From: Lachnospiraceae bacterium
GTDB taxonomy: Bacteria; Bacillota; Clostridia; Lachnospirales; Lachnospiraceae
NCBI GenBank assembly: GCA_017624495.1
Contig: JAGAMY010000004.1
Location: 47,719 to 111,718 of the forward strand
DNA: 64,000 bases
Direction of reading: 5' to 3'
Below, piece after piece: positions 22,284 through 61,752 of the stretch (the stretch's first letter is position 1; each line of letters starts with the position of its first letter). Made by a program: the position numbers and the translations under genes. The notes beneath the pieces were generated by a model. It did not search any database and had not been told where the DNA came from. It worked only from the letters and a program-made list of their open reading frames with translations.

Positions 22284-22610
22284 ATAAAAAAATCCCAAGG
22301 CGTTTTTTAACGCCCGGGACGAGTATTCTTCGTGGTGCCACCCGGCTTCACTATGCATGGATAATAAATAAAAAAGAGCACTTCCCTGATTCGGAAAATG
22401 CTCGCCACCAATCACATAGTCTTATCTTAATACAGAACAAATCGTTCGATATCTCACCCCTGTAACGTGAGGAACACGGCATCCGCTACTCTGATTCACT
22501 TTGCATCTCACAAACCCATTCCTATATAACTTTCTTATCATCTTCCACCAGCGATGACTCTCTGTAAAGAACCTTTCTATAGTACTCTCTTTGCTCAAAG
22601 ACTTTATGTA
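22284..22610 (-). promoter_or_regulatory. T-box riboswitch leader, probably tRNA-Trp responsive
   Basis: On the minus strand the leader has a Stem I region (AGAGAGTCATCGCTGGTGGAA), a candidate specifier UGG at 22516-22518 (in GGAATGGGT), the T-box TGGCACCACG at 22331-22340, and a terminator hairpin at 22293-22319 with seven T at 22286-22292. Uncharged tRNA-Trp would pair with the specifier and T-box and favour the antiterminator. The trpB gene directly downstream fits the Trp specifier. The terminator and T-box are certain; the specifier is inferred. Confidence 0.92.
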
Positions 22611-46714: not shown

Positions 46715-49186
46715 TTATACTTCTTTAATTTTCATCGGTTTCTTGAAACCAACCTTTTTCTTCAGTAATTTCTTTACAGTTGCATAGTTATCACTGGATA
46801 CTTTGAAGGTTGCATTTTTCTTAATACCTTTGAATGCATTTTTACCGATGCTCTTTACATTGTCACCGATAGTAATTGTTTTTAATTTTTTGCAGTTCTG
46901 GAATGCTTTATCAGCAATCTTGTTTACTGCAAATGAATAACCTTCGATTTCAACTTCATCAGGAATTACAACAGATTTTGCATTCTTCTTTGTCATTCCT
47001 TTTACGGTAACTGTTCCGTTTGTACCATCTGTGTTGTATTCATCTACTTTTGTTATTTCGTATTTTACACTACCTACGATATGTACAGATTTTTCTGCCG
47101 GAAGTTCTGGTGCAGCTTCACCTTCATCAATCACAATTTCTGTTTCTGTAGAAGGTGTAACAGATGTTATAGGCGCTGATATTTCTGGTTTTGTAAGAGT
47201 AATCAGTGTGTTATTTATTAACTTATCTGCACGAGTGAGAATGTTATTGATAACCTTTGTACCACACATATTTTCTTCATACAATGCTTCTGCTTTATCT
47301 GCTAATACATTCATCTGTGCAATCGCATCTTTTGTATAAAGAGATGTCTTTTTTGCTGCTTCTCTTAATTCTTCTGCTTTATACTTCAACCCTCTTGTAT
47401 CTACTTCAATATAATCAATATGATGATAATTCTCAACCGTTTCATCGCTATTGTATGTATCAATGATTGTATTATACTCCTCTACAGTAATTGGAATCAT
47501 ACCACCATGTGTACCAATATCTCCACCAGTACGTCCATAACCACTTGTTACTTTCTTGATACTATCCGGATCTGATAAATCAGTTGTTGTATATGGCTCA
47601 TAACGAACATTTATCGGAACATAATTATCAATCATGACACACCATTCATCACGATCAATGAATTTAAACATGGTAGCTCCTTCATAAGCACCTGTGTACT
47701 TTTCAATTCCTTTCTGGGAAATCTTTTCAAAATGATCTCCTGTCGCATTATTCTTAAACCAATTCCAAACAATTTCCGCTTTCTTAATATCATTCTTTTC
47801 ATTTGTAATACTGCTTAAATCCTCTAAGCTTGTATATTTCTTTCCATCCAATTCATACGGTGTAATTTTATGCGCTACAGATGCATCATAATCTACACTT
47901 GAATCTAATACAGTATCTGCACAATATAACTCAATATGATTATTAGTTTCATCTTTTGTAAGACGATACAACTTGCCATATGGATTACCCGTTTCATCTT
48001 CTACCCAAAGCATAGATGTATCAATAGTTCCATATCCACTATTATTACCGCCTACACCATTGGGCTTATAATTTTCAAAGAATGGATCCTGCTCATATAA
48101 TTTAGTTGGTCCAAAGGTAACAAAATCACTTGTTTCATTACAATATACACGATCTCTTGTTCTACCATCTACTGTTGTACGTGCAGACCAGTATACAAGA
48201 TAATTATCTTTTTGCGGATTATAAATTGCTTCTGGCGCCCAAGCCATACAAATCGTTTCGTCACCATTCTCATCTTTTATTCCCACATCAATATATCTTC
48301 TAGTCCAGTTAACATAGTCTTCGGTTTCCCAAACAAACAAACATGTACTGCCGTTTACATTTGTTAACTCCCATTTTCCACAGGTATTGGTTAATTTATT
48401 TCCATCATAATTCTCAGCATCATGTGTATTTAAGTCAGTCGCTAAAATCCATGTCTTGCCTTTATCCTCTTCTCTGACACCACGGATTAAGTATGGATCA
48501 CGCACACCCTGATCATCACCTTCGAATGGGAACAATACAGAAGCATCACCTGTTACAGTTTTGGAAATATCTGTTCCTGCTTTCACTTCATAGTTTACAC
48601 TACCCGGTCCACAGGATTCAATTTTATCTGCATAATCATCCCCTGTAAGGAATACCGGATTACATCCATTTACTGCTGTCCAATTCAAACCATCTTCACT
48701 TAAGAAGAAATGTAACTGCTGTACGTCAGACTCTTCTTTCACTCGCTCTACGGCAAAAGATACATAAATATATCCTGCATAAGAATCCTCTGCAAATCCT
48801 TCCCAAACCGTTAATGGAATCTCTTTCGTATATGTATCGCCCTCTGCTGTTACAGTTGCATATAAAGTAAATTCATAATTCCCTGCTCCTGCATATGGTC
48901 TGGTAACCTTTAATACGTTTCCCTCTACTGATACCCAACGTGCATCTGCATTTCCTACACTATATGTAATACTTGCATCAGACAAACCATCAACTGTCGT
49001 CGGCAATGTAAGATCTTCTGTCAAAAGTTGTTTTACTTCTGCTTCACGAAACGTCAAATTTTCTTCAACAATTTCTTCAATACTCGACGCTGCTAAGACT
49101 TCCCCAGTAGTAGTGGGTATCATACCCACTACCATAGCTGCGGAAAGACTTAATGCAAATATACTCTTCACGATTCTTTGCTTCAT
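46715..49186 (-). CDS. Secreted GH43-like beta-propeller glycosidase with Ig-like and LRR_5 domains
   Basis: An 823-residue exported protein with a signal peptide at residues 8-33. An atrophied Ig-like domain (about 38-130) precedes a five-bladed-propeller-like region (about 135-560) with GH43/GH32-type motifs: DQGVRDPYLIRG, WAPEAIYNPQKDNYLVYWSA and SYGTIDTSMLW-like segments. GVRDPYL and AWAPEA place candidate Asp and Glu catalytic residues. A helical FIVAR-like region follows. The last 120 residues form a BspA-type LRR_5 domain nearly identical to the end of the protein at 52238-54712. It is probably an arabinan or arabinoxylan-debranching enzyme at the cell surface. It is the third gene of the operon. 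Confidence 0.8.
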   Translation of the reverse strand: MKQRIVKSIFALSLSAAMVVGMIPTTTGEVLAASSIEEIVEENLTFREAEVKQLLTEDLTLPTTVDGLSDASITYSVGNADARWVSVEGNVLKVTRPYAGAGNYEFTLYATVTAEGDTYTKEIPLTVWEGFAEDSYAGYIYVSFAVERVKEESDVQQLHFFLSEDGLNWTAVNGCNPVFLTGDDYADKIESCGPGSVNYEVKAGTDISKTVTGDASVLFPFEGDDQGVRDPYLIRGVREEDKGKTWILATDLNTHDAENYDGNKLTNTCGKWELTNVNGSTCLFVWETEDYVNWTRRYIDVGIKDENGDETICMAWAPEAIYNPQKDNYLVYWSARTTVDGRTRDRVYCNETSDFVTFGPTKLYEQDPFFENYKPNGVGGNNSGYGTIDTSMLWVEDETGNPYGKLYRLTKDETNNHIELYCADTVLDSSVDYDASVAHKITPYELDGKKYTSLEDLSSITNEKNDIKKAEIVWNWFKNNATGDHFEKISQKGIEKYTGAYEGATMFKFIDRDEWCVMIDNYVPINVRYEPYTTTDLSDPDSIKKVTSGYGRTGGDIGTHGGMIPITVEEYNTIIDTYNSDETVENYHHIDYIEVDTRGLKYKAEELREAAKKTSLYTKDAIAQMNVLADKAEALYEENMCGTKVINNILTRADKLINNTLITLTKPEISAPITSVTPSTETEIVIDEGEAAPELPAEKSVHIVGSVKYEITKVDEYNTDGTNGTVTVKGMTKKNAKSVVIPDEVEIEGYSFAVNKIADKAFQNCKKLKTITIGDNVKSIGKNAFKGIKKNATFKVSSDNYATVKKLLKKKVGFKKPMKIKEV

Positions 49187-55016: not shown

Positions 55017-55775
55017 TTATAATCCATATTGCTGAAACAACTGCTCTTGATAATTCATATCCGTTACAGCTTTTTCAATATCTTCATTGCGAGATTCTTT
55101 TAATAGAATACGAATAAGCTGATTTACACGCTCACTGCCTTTTTCTATTCCTTGCTGCATTCCTTTTTCCATTCCTTGCTGTAATCCCAATCGTTCACAT
55201 TCTTCGAACTTATCTTTCATTCTTTCCATAACAATTTCTTCTAACGCTTCACACATATCTTTATCCTCCTCTTCAAATACACTTTTATTTGCCTTTACTA
55301 TCAGATTCATTATTGATTTATACCTTTTATCCTGCTTATGCTTTCCATATTCATCCAAAAGCTTTTCCTTTGTCAATCCCCTTAACCATAAATTTTCTTC
55401 CTGCGATAATTCTGATGTAAGAATCAACTGTATCGGTATCTTCAAACCATTAATATAGTATATTCCATCTTCCATGCGCATAATCATGAACCCATGTCTT
55501 TTTAAATGGGACAATAACTTTCTAGGATACTTGTAACACACAAATGTTATGGTTAATTCTTCTATTTTTATCATATTAACCTTTACTGAATCTGCTTTAT
55601 AGAAACAGGCATAGCCATATACTTTATAAAAATCATCAATATTCAGATAATCTCCCGGCGGCTTGTATTCTATAATATTATGCCTGCGAAATATTCTCCC
55701 TATATTTTTAGTAATCGGCTTTTGCGTATCCTTTTTTATCACCAAAACATCTATTTCTTTTGGTTTTGTACCTAA
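55017..55775 (-). pseudogene. N-terminally broken PD-(D/E)XK (Rpn-like) nuclease gene
   Basis: The frame reads LGTKPKEIDVLVIKKD and then IIEYKPPGDYLNIDDFYKVY, which has the D...E-x-K pattern of a PD-(D/E)XK nuclease family abundant in Lachnospiraceae, followed by a helical tail with QQGMEKGMQQGIEKG repeats. No ATG precedes the conserved core; the only start is a TTG at 55745, and in-frame stops lie at 55776-55778 and 55782-55784. In another frame the DNA upstream reads EVESPDNN, which would join to LGTKPKE if one T were added. So a one-base frameshift is likely, with further decay upstream. Confidence 0.65.
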
Positions 55776-55977
55776 TTATTGTCAGGAGATTCCACTTCGA
55801 AAACCCCTGCTATATTATTGGGTATCAAGCATGAATTTTCTGATAGAACAACTTACGTTGTTTCAATGGAAATGTTTATAATATGCTATATGAATCATTG
55901 AAAAATCTTGCTTTGGCTTATTCTAACACACCGGCATACCAATGTAAAGAAAAAGATGCCACACCGTGACATCTCTT

Positions 55978-56220
55978 TTAATTATACACTCTCTGCATCG
56001 TCTGTCCCACAAACACCTGCCCATTTCTGGCATATCCCATAGTCTTGCCTTCAAAGCTGTGTTCTGCGTTCTGACGTTCTTTTTCGTCCGCTAAAAGCTG
56101 TCCGAAAGATTTTTGTTTCCCATGGTTTTCGTCTTTTCTGCGTCTGGACTTCGAATCCTGTAAAGCTGTGACTAAAACCACAGAGGTAACCTTGAAATAA
56201 CCATCATATGCGTATGCGGC
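55978..56220 (-). CDS. Small basic protein, start uncertain or frameshifted
   Basis: An 80-residue open frame reads AAYAYDGYFKVTSVVLV, then a basic SRRRKDENHGKQKSFGQLL region, and ends QVFVGQTMQRVYN. No known domain is recognised, although the wording looks like a conserved Lachnospiraceae family. The frame has no ATG: a GTG at 56181 would give 67 residues. An AAGGAGGG site (56225-56232) abuts an ATG in another frame, and one base fewer there would give a 5' end MS-AYAYDGYF. It is read as a frameshifted start or a non-ATG start. It lies directly downstream of jetC. Confidence 0.55.
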   Translation of the reverse strand, partial: AAYAYDGYFKVTSVVLVTALQDSKSRRRKDENHGKQKSFGQLLADEKERQNAEHSFEGKTMGYARNGQVFVGQTMQRVYN

Positions 56221-56238
56221 TCATCCCTCCTTAAATAC

Positions 56239-56252
56239 TGTGCCTAGGCACA
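56239..56252. promoter_or_regulatory. 14-base perfect palindrome between jetC and the small gene
   Basis: TGTGCCTAGGCACA, six bases upstream of the AAGGAGGG site. A perfect TATAAT lies about 35 bases further upstream on the minus strand. It could be an operator or an mRNA hairpin. Confidence 0.4.
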
Positions 56253-56300
56253 TATCTGTTAAAGTTTTTCGGTTACTTTGCTTCTATATTATATATCGGC

Positions 56301-59300
56301 TTAAATCTCATTTTCAGAAAGCTCTGCAAAGTCAGTTTTTTCAAATTCCTGAATGGAAATGCTTTTTTTGTTCGGGTTCGCATAGACAAAGGTCTTATCT
56401 ACATTTTCTAAATAGTTCTGGATTTTATCATTTGTGGCACTAATAATTGCCTGAAATCCCAATCCGCGTATCAACTCAATACAGCTTGCCACTTTTTCCG
56501 CATCCATCTTAGAAAAGGCTTCATCTAAAACTACTAAACGAATAGTCGGTCTTCTTTGCAGCTTCGGTGAAAGATTTATCCTATAAGCCTGGGCAAAACT
56601 TGCCAATAGAGCTACATAGAGCGGATTTTGTCCTTCTCCACCGGAATTTTTCTTAATCATTTTGCTAAGTCCAATGACTAATTTTTCTTCTCCTTCTACA
56701 ATCTGCTCCATTTCAAAGGAAAGATATGTCCGGTAATCTGCATATTTTTCCATATTTAACCGGGCTTCTTCCTGTGTCTTTGCATCTGCATTTTCCGGCG
56801 GGATAAAAATATGTATCAGCTCATTGATACGGTTTCCGTAACGATTTTCATGCTCCAAGGAAAAAAGGTTCACCTGATTTGACATAGAATCGGATAAGGT
56901 ATCCGGGTGAATTTCTAAGGATTCATCCATAAACATATCGTAGTATTCACCATCTATCCCTTTATTTCTTGTAATCTTAAACTGGTAACGGTCTTTTCCA
57001 AAGTTTAAGTTCTTGATTATACGGTTTAACTCATCCCGACGAATATATGCTTCTTTTATGGCACTGCGGATTTTATAGACAAAGTCCTCTTTAAAATGCT
57101 CAATGGCTACTTTTGCCTGTTCAGATGCCATTTTTTCATAGTCGATAAGTCTGTCACAGGAAAGCTCATCTAACAGCTTCTGATAAACATCATTATTTTC
57201 TTCACTGGCAGAAAAATCTCTTGACGGATGCTTTTGCAGATATTCACTGCGGACATCTATCAGTCGTTTTTTCGCATTTTCGCTTTCTGCTTTTGTCTTT
57301 TCTAAAGCATCCCTTGTCTGCTGCATCATTTTTTCATAGGAAATATTTTTCTTTTCTTCTATATAAAGTGCAAACTCTTCTTCCTGCTGTTTTGAACCTG
57401 TCAATGCCCTCTGCTTTTGTAAAAGAGCTTCATTCCAATCAATATTCTGCTGTTTATAAACTTCAATATTTTTTTCCCTGTCATGAATCAGAAGCTTTTG
57501 CTTGTCCATTTTAGCTTCTATATCTTTTTGTTTTTCACGGACTTCTGCTAATGCTTCTTTTAATACATCCACCGTATCTGCCCCTAAGTCTTTTAACTGC
57601 TTTTCAAGCTCCTGTTTCCGCTTGATTTTGGATTTTTCATCCGCCATATCTCTTTGCAGCTCTAAGTACTCTTCCGTTGTGCGGGAAAGATATTCAAATT
57701 CTAAAAGTCTTCGGGCATCTTCAACAACAGCATCAAATTCTTCTTTCCTTTGGGAAAGTTCTTCATACCGCTGCTGTAATTCCTGCTGCCGCTTCCGCAT
57801 ACTCTTTTCCCCGATAAATGCCCGGCGGGTATAATTATCCGGGTTCATGCGGCGAAGCTGGTAATTTTGATACAGCATACATTCTGCCGTAACACCAATT
57901 CGCTGACTGCGAAGCTCTTCAATGGAATCACATTTTACCACATTTCCTAACAGATAGTGGACAAATGCCTGCACATAGGATTCTTCTGCGGTAATTTCTT
58001 CTGCTAAAGCATTTTCTTTTACTTTATACTCTTGTCCCGTCAGCCGTTCTGTATCAACTACAGAAATACTCCAGTATTTTTTTCTGTCTAGCTTTTCATA
58101 GACTTCCATGGCGGCATGGACATATTTTGGTTCAACCAGCAGTGCAAGTTTATTATAGCCTAAATATCCTTCAATGGCATTTCGCCATTTTTCATCCCGG
58201 ATATCGATGACATCGGCTAATATGTGCACAGGTATAGTCTTGCCATACACATCGTACAAGCCTCTTTGAATCAGTCTTTTCGCATCCTCTAATTCTCTTG
58301 GATATGCTTTTTTACCAAGACGGATTTCTGCTAATTCTCTCTCTAAAATGTCCAGTTCTTTTTTTAATCCTCTGCCTTCTGAAGCAGCTTCCTGTCGCTG
58401 TTTTTCCACATCATTATGAACATCTGCAAGATTTTTGGCTAAACGAATGAGTTCTTCGCCGGTAATGCTGCCATCCTTAAATTTTTCAATATCCCAAATA
58501 ATCTGGTTGGATGCCACTTCTTCGTCTTCCCATTTTGCAAGTACATCTGACAAATGCTGCCAGCGGCTGCGGCTGCGCTCTAAACGATGCAACAGCTCCT
58601 GAATATTATCCATTTCCTTTTCTAGCTCAGTATAGCCACTGCCTAGAATCTGACGGTTAATTTCATCATACTTATGATTATATTCTTCTCTCAATCCTTC
58701 CAGCTTTTGTAAACTTTCCGTCTGGGCACAAATATCCTGTTTTTCTGCTTCCGTTTTATCTTTTAATTCATGCAATGCCTGTTCTAATTGTAAAATATCC
58801 AGCTTTTCCAAACGGTAACTTAGATTTTGTTCTTTGTTTTTTCCCTGTTTAAACTCCTCATAAATATCCCGGATTTTTTCTAATTCTTCCATTTCTGTAC
58901 GGGTGTTTTCAATTTTACGGCACATTCTGCCATAAAGGATAACACTTTCTTTCATGTCCTCCATGTGAATATCCTGCTCCATACAGATGTATTCCTTTAC
59001 AAATTCTTCTAAACGGACATTCATGCGGAAAGGTATGGCACGTTTAAATAATCGTGGAAATTTTTCCATATCCAGTCCACCTAAATAGATATCATAGAGA
59101 TTTCTGCGGAAACGTTCATTATTAGATGTATAAAAATACTCTTCTTTTTCATAGTTGTGCTGCAAATAGGATTTCAGCTCACTAATCGCCATGGTTCTGC
59201 CATCGGTACGGTATTCATTTTCAAACAGGCCTCCCTTGTGCCAGAAAAATTGACGGTTCACCTCGTTTGTGGCAGTATCCACATCAAAAACAACGCCTAC

Positions 59301-59657
59301 ACATTCACTTTCCTGTGTGGCTGTCTGCTGTAATTCTAAAACGATTGTGGTAGAAAAATTATGATTTCGCTTATAGGCTGCCTGATTATTTTCACCAATA
59401 TTAATCATTCCCCGAAGGTATTCAATCAGATTTCGGTCAGAATCATCCGCTGCCGCTTTATTAAAAAAGCTTCTTCCGTCTGTATTGGCATATAGTACAA
59501 TCTGTATGGCATCAATGACCGTGGACTTTCCACTTCCGGAATGTCCGGTAAAAAAATTGATGCTTTTATTCAGACTTAAGGTTTTTCTATCAATATAATG
59601 CCAGTTATTCAGACAGATTCTCGTTATTGCCTTGTATGCCTGATTCCCATTCTCCAT
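56301..59657 (-). CDS. jetC: JetC/MksB-like SMC ATPase of a Wadjet-type complex
   Basis: An 1118-residue SMC-like ATPase. Walker A is GHSGSGKST (38-46) after LSLNKSINFFT. Two long coiled-coil arms flank a hinge-like centre (GYLGYNKLALLVEP). The signature SGGEGQ is near 1005-1010, and Walker B RLVVLDEAFSKMD near 1041-1053; the catalytic Glu is E1046. All ATPase motifs are intact. In Wadjet/MksBEF systems this subunit extrudes plasmid DNA loops with JetA and JetB so that the JetD nuclease can cut. AAGGAG precedes the ATG. It overlaps jetB by 53 bases. No jetD follows. Confidence 0.87.
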   Translation of the reverse strand: MENGNQAYKAITRICLNNWHYIDRKTLSLNKSINFFTGHSGSGKSTVIDAIQIVLYANTDGRSFFNKAAADDSDRNLIEYLRGMINIGENNQAAYKRNHNFSTTIVLELQQTATQESECVGVVFDVDTATNEVNRQFFWHKGGLFENEYRTDGRTMAISELKSYLQHNYEKEEYFYTSNNERFRRNLYDIYLGGLDMEKFPRLFKRAIPFRMNVRLEEFVKEYICMEQDIHMEDMKESVILYGRMCRKIENTRTEMEELEKIRDIYEEFKQGKNKEQNLSYRLEKLDILQLEQALHELKDKTEAEKQDICAQTESLQKLEGLREEYNHKYDEINRQILGSGYTELEKEMDNIQELLHRLERSRSRWQHLSDVLAKWEDEEVASNQIIWDIEKFKDGSITGEELIRLAKNLADVHNDVEKQRQEAASEGRGLKKELDILERELAEIRLGKKAYPRELEDAKRLIQRGLYDVYGKTIPVHILADVIDIRDEKWRNAIEGYLGYNKLALLVEPKYVHAAMEVYEKLDRKKYWSISVVDTERLTGQEYKVKENALAEEITAEESYVQAFVHYLLGNVVKCDSIEELRSQRIGVTAECMLYQNYQLRRMNPDNYTRRAFIGEKSMRKRQQELQQRYEELSQRKEEFDAVVEDARRLLEFEYLSRTTEEYLELQRDMADEKSKIKRKQELEKQLKDLGADTVDVLKEALAEVREKQKDIEAKMDKQKLLIHDREKNIEVYKQQNIDWNEALLQKQRALTGSKQQEEEFALYIEEKKNISYEKMMQQTRDALEKTKAESENAKKRLIDVRSEYLQKHPSRDFSASEENNDVYQKLLDELSCDRLIDYEKMASEQAKVAIEHFKEDFVYKIRSAIKEAYIRRDELNRIIKNLNFGKDRYQFKITRNKGIDGEYYDMFMDESLEIHPDTLSDSMSNQVNLFSLEHENRYGNRINELIHIFIPPENADAKTQEEARLNMEKYADYRTYLSFEMEQIVEGEEKLVIGLSKMIKKNSGGEGQNPLYVALLASFAQAYRINLSPKLQRRPTIRLVVLDEAFSKMDAEKVASCIELIRGLGFQAIISATNDKIQNYLENVDKTFVYANPNKKSISIQEFEKTDFAELSENEI

Positions 59658-60285
59658 CTTCGCTTTCTCCTTCTATGTCTTCTTTTATGTCCGCCACATC
59701 TTCTGCAAAATACGCCAGTAGTTTCAATAAATCCTCCCGCATCAGCACCACATTGATACAGGGATATATGATAATTCTGGTATTTTCATTTAATTCCTCT
59801 AAAACATCCATCAGTTCTATCATCTGGTATTTTTTTAATACAGCCAGTGCCTTTCGGATTTCCGTAATGGAGGAAAGGCTTTTTAACAGCTTAAATTCTC
59901 CTGCTTTTCCGTTTAATTCTCCAAAGGTCGTTGCTATATTGACACTAGAAGATGCGGATGCCATCTGCTCATCATAAATGAGTTTTAACAAAAGCAGATA
60001 AATCGTAGCCAATTTTGGCAGCTTTTCTCCCATGGTGGTTTCACCCTGAATATAAATCGTTCCAAGCTCCATATTCTGATATATCCGTATACCGGCAATG
60101 GCAAAATATGCTTTCAAAAATTCCATATGCTTGTCACAAAAATAAAAGTCCTTATTCAGCACCATTCTACCGATTTTTTTATCGTATTTACGTTCTAGGA
60201 GATAGGTTTGTCTGTAAAGCTGCTGTATGATACTTTGCAGCTTTTCCTGCTCTTCTCCTGTTAATTGTTCATAATATTCAAACAT
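59605..60285 (-). CDS. jetB: JetB/MksE-like kite protein (DUF4194)
   Basis: A 226-residue protein with the DUF4194/kleisin-interacting winged-helix pattern: LERKYDKKIGRMVLNKDFYFC, then TIYLLLLKLIYDEQ and ALAVLKKYQMIELMD, ending with an acidic tail. In Wadjet and Mks complexes this dimeric kite subunit binds the kleisin (JetA/MksF). It lies between jetA (six bases upstream) and jetC (overlapping), the canonical order. The ribosome binding site is weak, so translational coupling is likely. Confidence 0.85.
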   Translation of the reverse strand: MFEYYEQLTGEEQEKLQSIIQQLYRQTYLLERKYDKKIGRMVLNKDFYFCDKHMEFLKAYFAIAGIRIYQNMELGTIYIQGETTMGEKLPKLATIYLLLLKLIYDEQMASASSSVNIATTFGELNGKAGEFKLLKSLSSITEIRKALAVLKKYQMIELMDVLEELNENTRIIIYPCINVVLMREDLLKLLAYFAEDVADIKEDIEGESEDGEWESGIQGNNENLSE

Positions 60286-60291
60286 GATTTA

Positions 60292-61686
60292 TCACTGCCT
60301 TTCTCGTTTCCGTACAAAGGTCATTGCCGGATAACGGTAGTTTCCGTCTTCTACGACAACCTCTTCTGTCAGCACCTCAAATCCGCCATTTTTGCGCATG
60401 GCAAGGTCATAGGCTAAGATTAATTTTTCAAATTCTTCGTCATTTTCCATATGCATATTCGCAGACTGCCACATACCTTCTGTCATATGCATTTCAATAA
60501 ATTCCGTGATTTCTTCCTTACTAAAACGATGGGATATCCTGTTCATTTTCAAGACATCTTCTTTGGATAATTCCTGTAAATTTTCGTCTACGGTTAGCTC
60601 ATCTGTAAATTTTCGTCTGCGCCTGCGCCTAAATAACGGATTTTCACTTAGAATATCCAACGCGGATAAATTGAGTTTTTCAGAAACTATGCGAAGCTTT
60701 TCCTCCGTTTCCTTATCTTCTCCCTGTCCTATACAATTTAAAAGCTGTATCATCAGACCTCTTCTGTCACTTTCCTCACTTAGAAGATAATTCAGACGGT
60801 TGACTGTGGCACGGACATATTTACTGTGCTCCTTGTCCATGTTGGTAATGCGGCGCTCTATATCCTCAAATCCACGCTCGATCTGGTCTAAAATATCCAA
60901 TACGTCATCCGTTCTGCGACTCTGAAAGAAATGGTCTTCCTGCTGTCGTTTTTCCTCTTTTTTTTGCTGTAACAGGGTAAGCCATGTATCGTCCTCACGC
61001 AATGCCTTGATACACTGCTTGATATCCATTTTATACATATAGAAGTTATCACTGGTCTTTAAAATGTGATATTTTTTCTTTACTATTTCTTCTACATAGC
61101 CTTCTAAATGCTCCTCTAAAAGCCCGGCATAGGTATCCTTTTCCAGTAAACGTCCAAAGAATTTGTCCATATTGTGCAGCATATCCTGCAATGCTTTATT
61201 TAATTTTTTGGTATTCACCAATGCCGTCTTTAGCATGGCTGTATTCAGTTTTTTATCGTTGCGAAAAGAATAGAGTGTGGCATAAACATTCTGGATATAG
61301 ATGTCCGTATCGTCCTCCGGCTCATTTGCCAGCTTTTCAAAGGCTTCTATCATAATGGATGCATAATCCGGGATAACGATATTCGTAGACATTGTATTAT
61401 AATCTTCCAGTCTGCGCAGCCATTTCGTGCGCACCAGCCAGTTTAAAATACGTCTTGGCATGGTTTCTGCCAAATCCTCTTCTGTTTCAATTTCCTCTTT
61501 TTCCATCTGAAAGCGATGTCTTGCACACATGTCTCCCAATATTTGAATACACGCTTCACGGCTTAAAAAGTAGTTATTATACTGGTATTCATCATTTATG
61601 GTCAACAGTGCTTCAATATAAATTTCTCTGTTTATGGAACGAAACAGCCCCCAGAAGGAGGCCGGTATTTCATATGTAAATTTCAC
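60292..61686 (-). CDS. jetA: JetA/MksF-like kleisin of a Wadjet-type complex (DUF5716)
   Basis: A 464-residue protein. It starts IPASFWGLFRSINREIYIEALL, typical of Wadjet JetA (DUF5716 family), with a helical middle (coiled coil about 255-310), a basic FRRRRRRKF patch near 355-362, and a C-terminal winged-helix region (SKEDVLKMNRISHRFSKEEI). The start is GTG at 61686 with AGAGG upstream. It is first in the operon, with a consensus promoter at 61724-61752. Kleisin role inferred from gene order and family. Confidence 0.85.
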   Translation of the reverse strand: MKFTYEIPASFWGLFRSINREIYIEALLTINDEYQYNNYFLSREACIQILGDMCARHRFQMEKEEIETEEDLAETMPRRILNWLVRTKWLRRLEDYNTMSTNIVIPDYASIMIEAFEKLANEPEDDTDIYIQNVYATLYSFRNDKKLNTAMLKTALVNTKKLNKALQDMLHNMDKFFGRLLEKDTYAGLLEEHLEGYVEEIVKKKYHILKTSDNFYMYKMDIKQCIKALREDDTWLTLLQQKKEEKRQQEDHFFQSRRTDDVLDILDQIERGFEDIERRITNMDKEHSKYVRATVNRLNYLLSEESDRRGLMIQLLNCIGQGEDKETEEKLRIVSEKLNLSALDILSENPLFRRRRRRKFTDELTVDENLQELSKEDVLKMNRISHRFSKEEITEFIEMHMTEGMWQSANMHMENDEEFEKLILAYDLAMRKNGGFEVLTEEVVVEDGNYRYPAMTFVRKRERQ

Positions 61687-61723: not shown

Positions 61724-61752
61724 ATTTTAACATTGCCCGGATATTCTGTCAA
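61724..61752 (-). promoter_or_regulatory. Promoter of the jetABC operon
   Basis: Minus-strand TTGACA (61747-61752), a 17-base spacer, and TAAAAT (61724-61729). It is a strong constitutive-looking promoter divergent from aroC. Confidence 0.8.

Follow-up and report, generated by a model that had tools for sequence, protein, structure and literature searches.

Can the loop-extruding part of a Wadjet system be of use to its host when the gene for the DNA-cutting subunit is gone? This question is raised by an operon of three genes, jetA, jetB and jetC, with no jetD, which we have analysed in a gut bacterium of the Lachnospiraceae (GenBank assembly GCA_017624495.1) within a stretch of 64,000 nucleotides, positions 47,719 to 111,718 of the forward strand of contig JAGAMY010000004.1, hereafter called the window. 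According to the usual model, JetABC without JetD has no job. Many separate losses of jetD, together with strong conservation of jetABC, suggest that JetABC has a job alone. We therefore lean towards reading the operon as the JetABC core that a type I Wadjet keeps when jetD is deleted, as has happened repeatedly, with the motor retained as an accessory DNA organiser. Because many relatives lacking jetD still conserve jetABC, the three genes probably do a useful job without cutting DNA, and we infer that their function is independent of the nuclease.

The jetABC operon and the search for jetD

All three genes lie on the minus strand. The gene jetA (60292..61686) starts with GTG and encodes a type I Wadjet kleisin of 464 amino acids, which matches the PADLOC profile JetA1 (PDLC00451) at 1e-215 over residues 1-461 and Pfam PF18982 with 411.9 bits (cut-off 26.2). 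After a gap of 6 bp follows jetB (59605..60285), whose product is a KITE subunit of 226 amino acids matched by JetB1 (PDLC00484; 8e-107, residues 1-214) and by Pfam DUF4194 (51.8 bits, cut-off 32.7). An overlap of 53 bp joins jetB to jetC (56301..59657), which encodes a structural maintenance of chromosomes (SMC) ATPase of 1118 amino acids matched by JetC1 (PDLC00505; E=0, residues 5-1117) and, in Pfam, by SbcC_Walker_B and AAA_29. The ATPase motifs of JetC are complete (Walker A GHSGSGKS at residues 38-45, signature SGGE, Walker B LVVLDEAF), and a search of solved structures at E 0.001 finds a single relative by sequence, JetC 8dk1 (chain 8dk1_C, 3.3e-8). Judging from gene order and spacing, jetA, jetB and jetC appear to form one operon. 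An earlier, sequence-only reading of this DNA had described intact and tightly spaced genes in canonical order, complete JetC motifs and no jetD; the near full-length matches to type I profiles and the motifs agree with that description, and a six-frame profile search found no jetD at the locus.

The same reading had left room for a JetD encoded elsewhere and for an assembly error at 55-56.3 kb, and had proposed a genome-wide search. Searching for JetD_C (Pfam PF09983), we found no match in the window's genome, which is only 54.7% complete, and this incompleteness is the point in favour of the view that the species has jetD and the draft assembly has missed it. The region downstream of the operon is, however, assembled and has no jetD. 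Moreover, the sister genome (G054; 98% complete, 0% contamination) carries the operon, with a JetC 86% identical to the window's, and has no JetD_C match anywhere; its jetC is identical to that of locus L001, which identifies it with genome G001. In the sister, jetC is directly followed by a relative (61% identity) of an 824-amino-acid gene of the window, with no jetD between. Because this independent metagenome-assembled genome (MAG) shares the absence of jetD and the jetC junction, an assembly fault at 55-56.3 kb is unlikely as its source. A jetD simply missing from the draft seems to us barely credible, and an unlinked JetD serving this operon is not supported by the nearly complete sister.

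Distribution and loss of jetD among relatives

In the species-genome collection, jetD is present in the locus in 18 of 52 relatives. We also examined an even draw of 396 genomes of the family, 388 of which reach 90% completeness with no more than 5% contamination. JetC of the window's clade, called focal below, occurs in 42 of them: jetD is adjacent in 12, displaced in one (L117, 7.2 kb away) and absent from the locus in 28, and in one the locus is cut by a contig end. As a control we took another clade of type I JetC within these 396 genomes, where jetD adjoins the operon at 9 of 10 places, the exception (G086) not being at a contig end; the two clades thus differ in adjacency with a Fisher p of 0.0007 when the displaced gene is counted as not adjacent and 0.001 when it is counted as present. 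A single stop lies within the matches of G334 jetC and of G273 jetD, both of which were counted as intact, the six-frame split giving one open stretch each; one stop inside the match was also found in three of the nine control jetD genes.

Within the window's genus, a JetC-like protein is present in 7 of 15 genomes and the focal JetC in two. Loci L157, L158 and L159 (genomes G055, G057 and G052) have a type I jetABC, the L157 JetC matching PADLOC JetC1 with E=0, and jetD is adjacent in none of the three. Their lineage, whose JetC dN/dS (ratio of nonsynonymous to synonymous substitution rates) is about 0.09, is placed next to the focal clade by a quickly built tree, in which the branches nearby are long. 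It may be a long-established nuclease-free form of jetABC. Of two other genomes of the genus, G063 (L160) holds a more distant JetC, with jetD absent from the 0.6 kb remaining on the contig, and G059 has a contig cut inside jetC; JetD_C matches of 337-357 amino acids are found on other contigs of G052, G055, G057 and G059. Since the L157-L159 lineage is also without jetD, we have softened the view that the loss is special to the focal clade: it is typical both of that clade and of the adjoining lineage in the genus, not of all type I JetC.

Such jetD-less operons could be served in trans by another nuclease, whether an unlinked JetD, one that belongs to a second Wadjet in the genome or a different enzyme, and a JetD_C match above the cut-off is indeed present elsewhere in 8 of the 28 jetD-less focal genomes. 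Seven of these eight JetDs, however, stand beside their own jetABC-type genes (four recognised by profile match, the remaining three, in G157, G213 and G282, from the size and order of the genes alone), and one, in G413, is an orphan of the cognate type. In the other 20, including the window's 98% complete sister, no JetD_C is found above the cut-off anywhere, G403 having a match below it, and no candidate partner gene is common to the neighbourhoods. The genome of Eisenbergiella tayi (L002) likewise has no JetD_C match; this genome-wide search of relatives left out L039 and L049. Although G004, with jetD on another contig from a locus that looks split by insertion, also speaks for a nuclease in trans, we consider this explanation improbable.

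Two of these cases deserve description. G413 is the genome of L020, Hominisplanchenecus murintestinalis, where jetABC is on a different contig from the orphan jetD (L056; G020/G413:C129, around 106-107 kb); the latter encodes 388 amino acids with no jetABC adjoining, and is either part of a split Wadjet or a relocated nuclease. In G004 (L004, L054), the jetD on the other contig adjoins a gene that comes after jetC in L005, L006 and L029. The genes after jetC in L004 we take to be a type I restriction-modification system, and an insertion has probably occurred between jetC and jetD.

The history of jetD was traced on a JetC tree from a quick IQ-TREE search, with 79 ingroup rows comprising 26 with adjacent jetD, 2 with displaced jetD, 50 without it and 1 undetermined; L052, L140, L047 and L049, of which the last two have jetD, were dropped beforehand for a decayed or short JetC. 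The fewest changes of jetD state on this tree are 21. About 22 losses are obtained when branches with less than 95% support are collapsed and 28 when only losses are allowed, and the starred branches of the tree alone give 15 independent contrasts. JetD identity correlates with JetC identity (r 0.70, a value reached in none of 2000 permutations), which is what vertical inheritance would give. The direction of change is loss, because L051 is without exactly the jetD interval of L018, the downstream flank being 85-91% identical, and because in L032 the first 22 codons of jetD remain as a stub after jetC. The loss of jetD is thus shown to be recurrent in this JetC clade of Lachnospiraceae and close kin.

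Two observations concern the surroundings of jetD. In L130, GGGGTCAGACCCC-type palindromic repeats flank jetD on both sides, similar repeats are found after jetC in the jetD-less L108 and L109, and a repeat-mediated deletion of jetD is possible. In L039, jetC and jetD are separated by two small genes, possibly a DUF3990/DUF3791 pair.

Constraint on the motor genes and their possible function

If jetABC had no job after the loss of jetD, the operon would be the relic of a dead Wadjet, too recent to have decayed, as the sequence-only reading had allowed. The window and L001 are both without jetD, and most simply their common ancestor already lacked it. Between the two, the proportion of synonymous differences (pS) is 0.62-0.75, dN/dS is 0.049 for jetB and 0.045 for jetC, and jetA, whose synonymous sites are near saturation, has a pN/pS (the corresponding ratio of proportions) of 0.10; none of the three genes is interrupted in either. 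Much the same is seen in further jetD-less sister pairs: dN/dS is mostly 0.03-0.10 in the unsaturated ones, compared with 0.02-0.11 in jetD-bearing pairs, many pairs being synonymously saturated and giving no ratio. Among assessable loci, namely those with a jetA match and enough upstream sequence (plus L111, and with contig-cut loci not counted), jetA, jetB and jetC all remain open across 93% or more of their models in 41 of 44 jetD-less loci, and the same holds for 26 of 26 jetD-bearing loci.

Damaged jetD-less loci do exist, and five of them (L033, L111, L052, L006 and L029) are what favours the relic explanation. The three exceptions among the 44 are L033 with a broken jetA, L111 with no jetA, and L125 (G190), where JetC is in one frame of 1220 codons and the model is matched in two stretches, 2-754 and 751-1110, indicating an insertion; in addition, jetC has frame breaks in L006 and L029, where jetA is not assessable, and L052 has decayed. 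Some jetD-less lineages are thus losing the motor, and most keep jetABC under constraint like that of armed systems. For the window's operon we reject the relic explanation and hold it to be very unlikely, because dN/dS of jetB and jetC is about 0.05 after synonymous sites have come near saturation and the frames are still open.

The reading that we favour, an accessory DNA organiser left after the deletion of jetD, would work as follows. JetABC would still assemble as a dimer of SMC motors, load on DNA and extrude loops with ATP; without JetD it could not cut, and it would, like MksBEF in Pseudomonas aeruginosa, be an accessory motor that organises DNA, working on the chromosome, on plasmids or on both without cleaving them. 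In a broader form of this proposal, which we regard as evenly balanced, JetD is a detachable module in this JetC clade: type I Wadjet would have lost its nuclease no fewer than about twenty times, with most lineages keeping the loop-extruding core under selection. The loci would then form a before-and-after series in which SMC-based defence gives way to a DNA organiser that does not cut, and the host would benefit from JetABC alone.

Several points weigh against this reading. The focal JetC has the patchy distribution of a defence locus, with 42 of 396 family genomes and 2 of 15 genus genomes, and is not universal like a condensin. A canonical Smc is present in seven of the eight jetD-less genomes tested, the one without it being the window's incomplete genome, and because of this presence JetABC would be an accessory motor and not a replacement condensin. 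The window's proteins stay below the cut-offs of the Pfam condensin families, with 15.4 bits for the MukB N-terminal model (cut-off 23) and 19.4 bits for MksE (cut-off 27). The damaged or altered loci described above count here as well. Finally, the JetB N-terminus, whose IFDR motif is reported to make contact with JetD in other type I systems, shows no significant erosion among jetD-less lineages when relatedness is taken into account: the motif is matched in 20 of 26 loci with jetD vs 22 of 48 without, and independent pairs give a median p of 0.6. When we looked for a footprint of JetD contact by listing columns that are conserved where jetD is present but relaxed where it is absent, JetC residue 517 had a median p of 0.03, but it was chosen from more than 1000 columns and we claim nothing from it.

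Because the distribution is patchy, the main rival is that JetABC without JetD is itself an anti-plasmid system that does not cut, compacting or holding small circular DNA, which would then be silenced, left unreplicated or lost at cell division. The defence-like distribution with changing genomic neighbourhoods and the strong constraint after jetD loss would both fit it, and a passage of a review mentions polar localisation of Wadjet in Corynebacterium glutamicum with possible sequestration of plasmids (PMC10586767). However, all four genes were required in the heterologous Bacillus subtilis test according to a passage of the same review (PMC10586767), and deletion of mksG is said, in an excerpt of another paper, to affect plasmid stability in C. 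glutamicum like deletions of mksB and mksF (PMC10123090). Our search for plasmid replication genes with Rep_1 gave matches in 0 of the 42 genomes and none in the controls either. We consider non-cutting anti-plasmid action unlikely, and keep it as the foremost competitor of the DNA-organiser reading.

Flanking genes and comparison with known systems

Downstream of jetC in the window, an open reading frame (ORF) of 67 amino acids with a GTG start (55978..56181, minus strand) is preceded in frame by a stop, with no intervening ATG, and had been described as having a broken start; a terminator-like hairpin of 13 pairs followed by a T-rich tail comes after it (55950..55978, minus). Next is an ORF of 242 amino acids (55017..55745, minus), probably a gene truncated at its 5' end. 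It had been called a decayed PD-(D/E)XK gene: in-frame stops upstream fit a broken start, but the PD-(D/E)XK identity is unconfirmed, with no Pfam match above the cut-off. Two large ORFs of 824 and 1006 amino acids lie further downstream, which may encode secreted glycan-acting proteins.

The sequence-only reading had proposed an Mks-like loop extruder with another effector, possibly the small basic protein, and a comparison of the downstream gene in related loci. The extruder is plausible and is now our best reading, but the comparison does not support the effector. Neither the 67-amino-acid ORF nor the 55017-55745 ORF is present at the sister locus (G054/L001), and we reject both as replacement effectors since they have no counterpart there or at other jet loci. 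The small ORF is a singleton cluster among 935 flanking ORFs within 6 kb of the compared operons; its family is rare, in 5 of 200 family genomes with the window's own genome included, and the four distant relatives adjoin genes other than jet genes, so that in the relatives compared it appears not to be part of the jet system. Nor do those 935 ORFs contain a replacement neighbour common to jetD-less loci: the flanking family found at most loci is JetD itself, at 26, followed by two unnamed clusters of 17 loci each that occur both with and without jetD. No substitute effector is therefore visible.

On the upstream side, a promoter-like site, TTGACA-17-TAAAAT (61724..61752, minus), precedes jetA. 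The consensus promoter of the earlier description is thus seen, with 11 of 12 consensus bases, but it proves little because such sites are as frequent in shuffles (26 in the region vs 23.3 +/- 5.3). A divergent chorismate synthase gene (Pfam and NCBIfam) lies on this side. A search for the empty site found no insertion boundary: the aroC surroundings vary among ten genus relatives, of which L146, L147 and L149 have one arrangement in common, and the window's other flank is in none. Elsewhere in the window, a T-box leader (22312-22607, minus) is the sole Rfam match above the gathering score.

Matched relatives with and without the nuclease, such as Eisenbergiella porci (L034, with jetD) and E. 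tayi, offer a setting in which the function of JetABC alone can be measured. Meanwhile, a jetABC that lacks jetD in a gut genome should not be scored as active plasmid defence, nor put down to faulty assembly. How SMC chromosome organisers and SMC defence systems were turned one into the other is described as unresolved in a passage of a review (PMC10586767), and in the literature searched we found no report of recurrent jetD loss within type I Wadjet with maintained jetABC. A survey of Bacillota, as an excerpt describes it, was built on jetD orthologues and would thus not centre on jetD-less loci (PMC12287153).

The locus is like Wadjet type I (JetABCD, also MksBEFG or EptABCD) in the canonical JetA-JetB-JetC order, in the near full-length matches to type I profiles and in the complete ATPase motifs, and relatives of the window's JetC include complete jetABCD operons. 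It is unlike type I in that the window locus, the draft genome and the near-complete sister are without jetD, so that the cutting step is missing. It also resembles the PADLOC class 'Wadjet other', a catch-all for loci missing some jet genes, which the part of the source concerned explains by MukFEB look-alikes, contig breaks, insertions, missed genes, mutations and divergence (PMC9252829); unlike what these explanations imply, the selection and recurrent deletion seen here suggest that the state is being maintained. The closest precedent is the MksBEF condensin of P. aeruginosa, covered in a passage of the review (PMC10586767), a MukBEF-like operon of SMC, kleisin and KITE genes without a nuclease, and a JetD-less MksBEF is thus already known. 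Unlike MksBEF, the window's proteins belong by sequence to type I JetABC, with the MukB and MksE Pfam models below cut-off; the jetD losses are separate events in Lachnospiraceae and kin, and the distribution is patchy.

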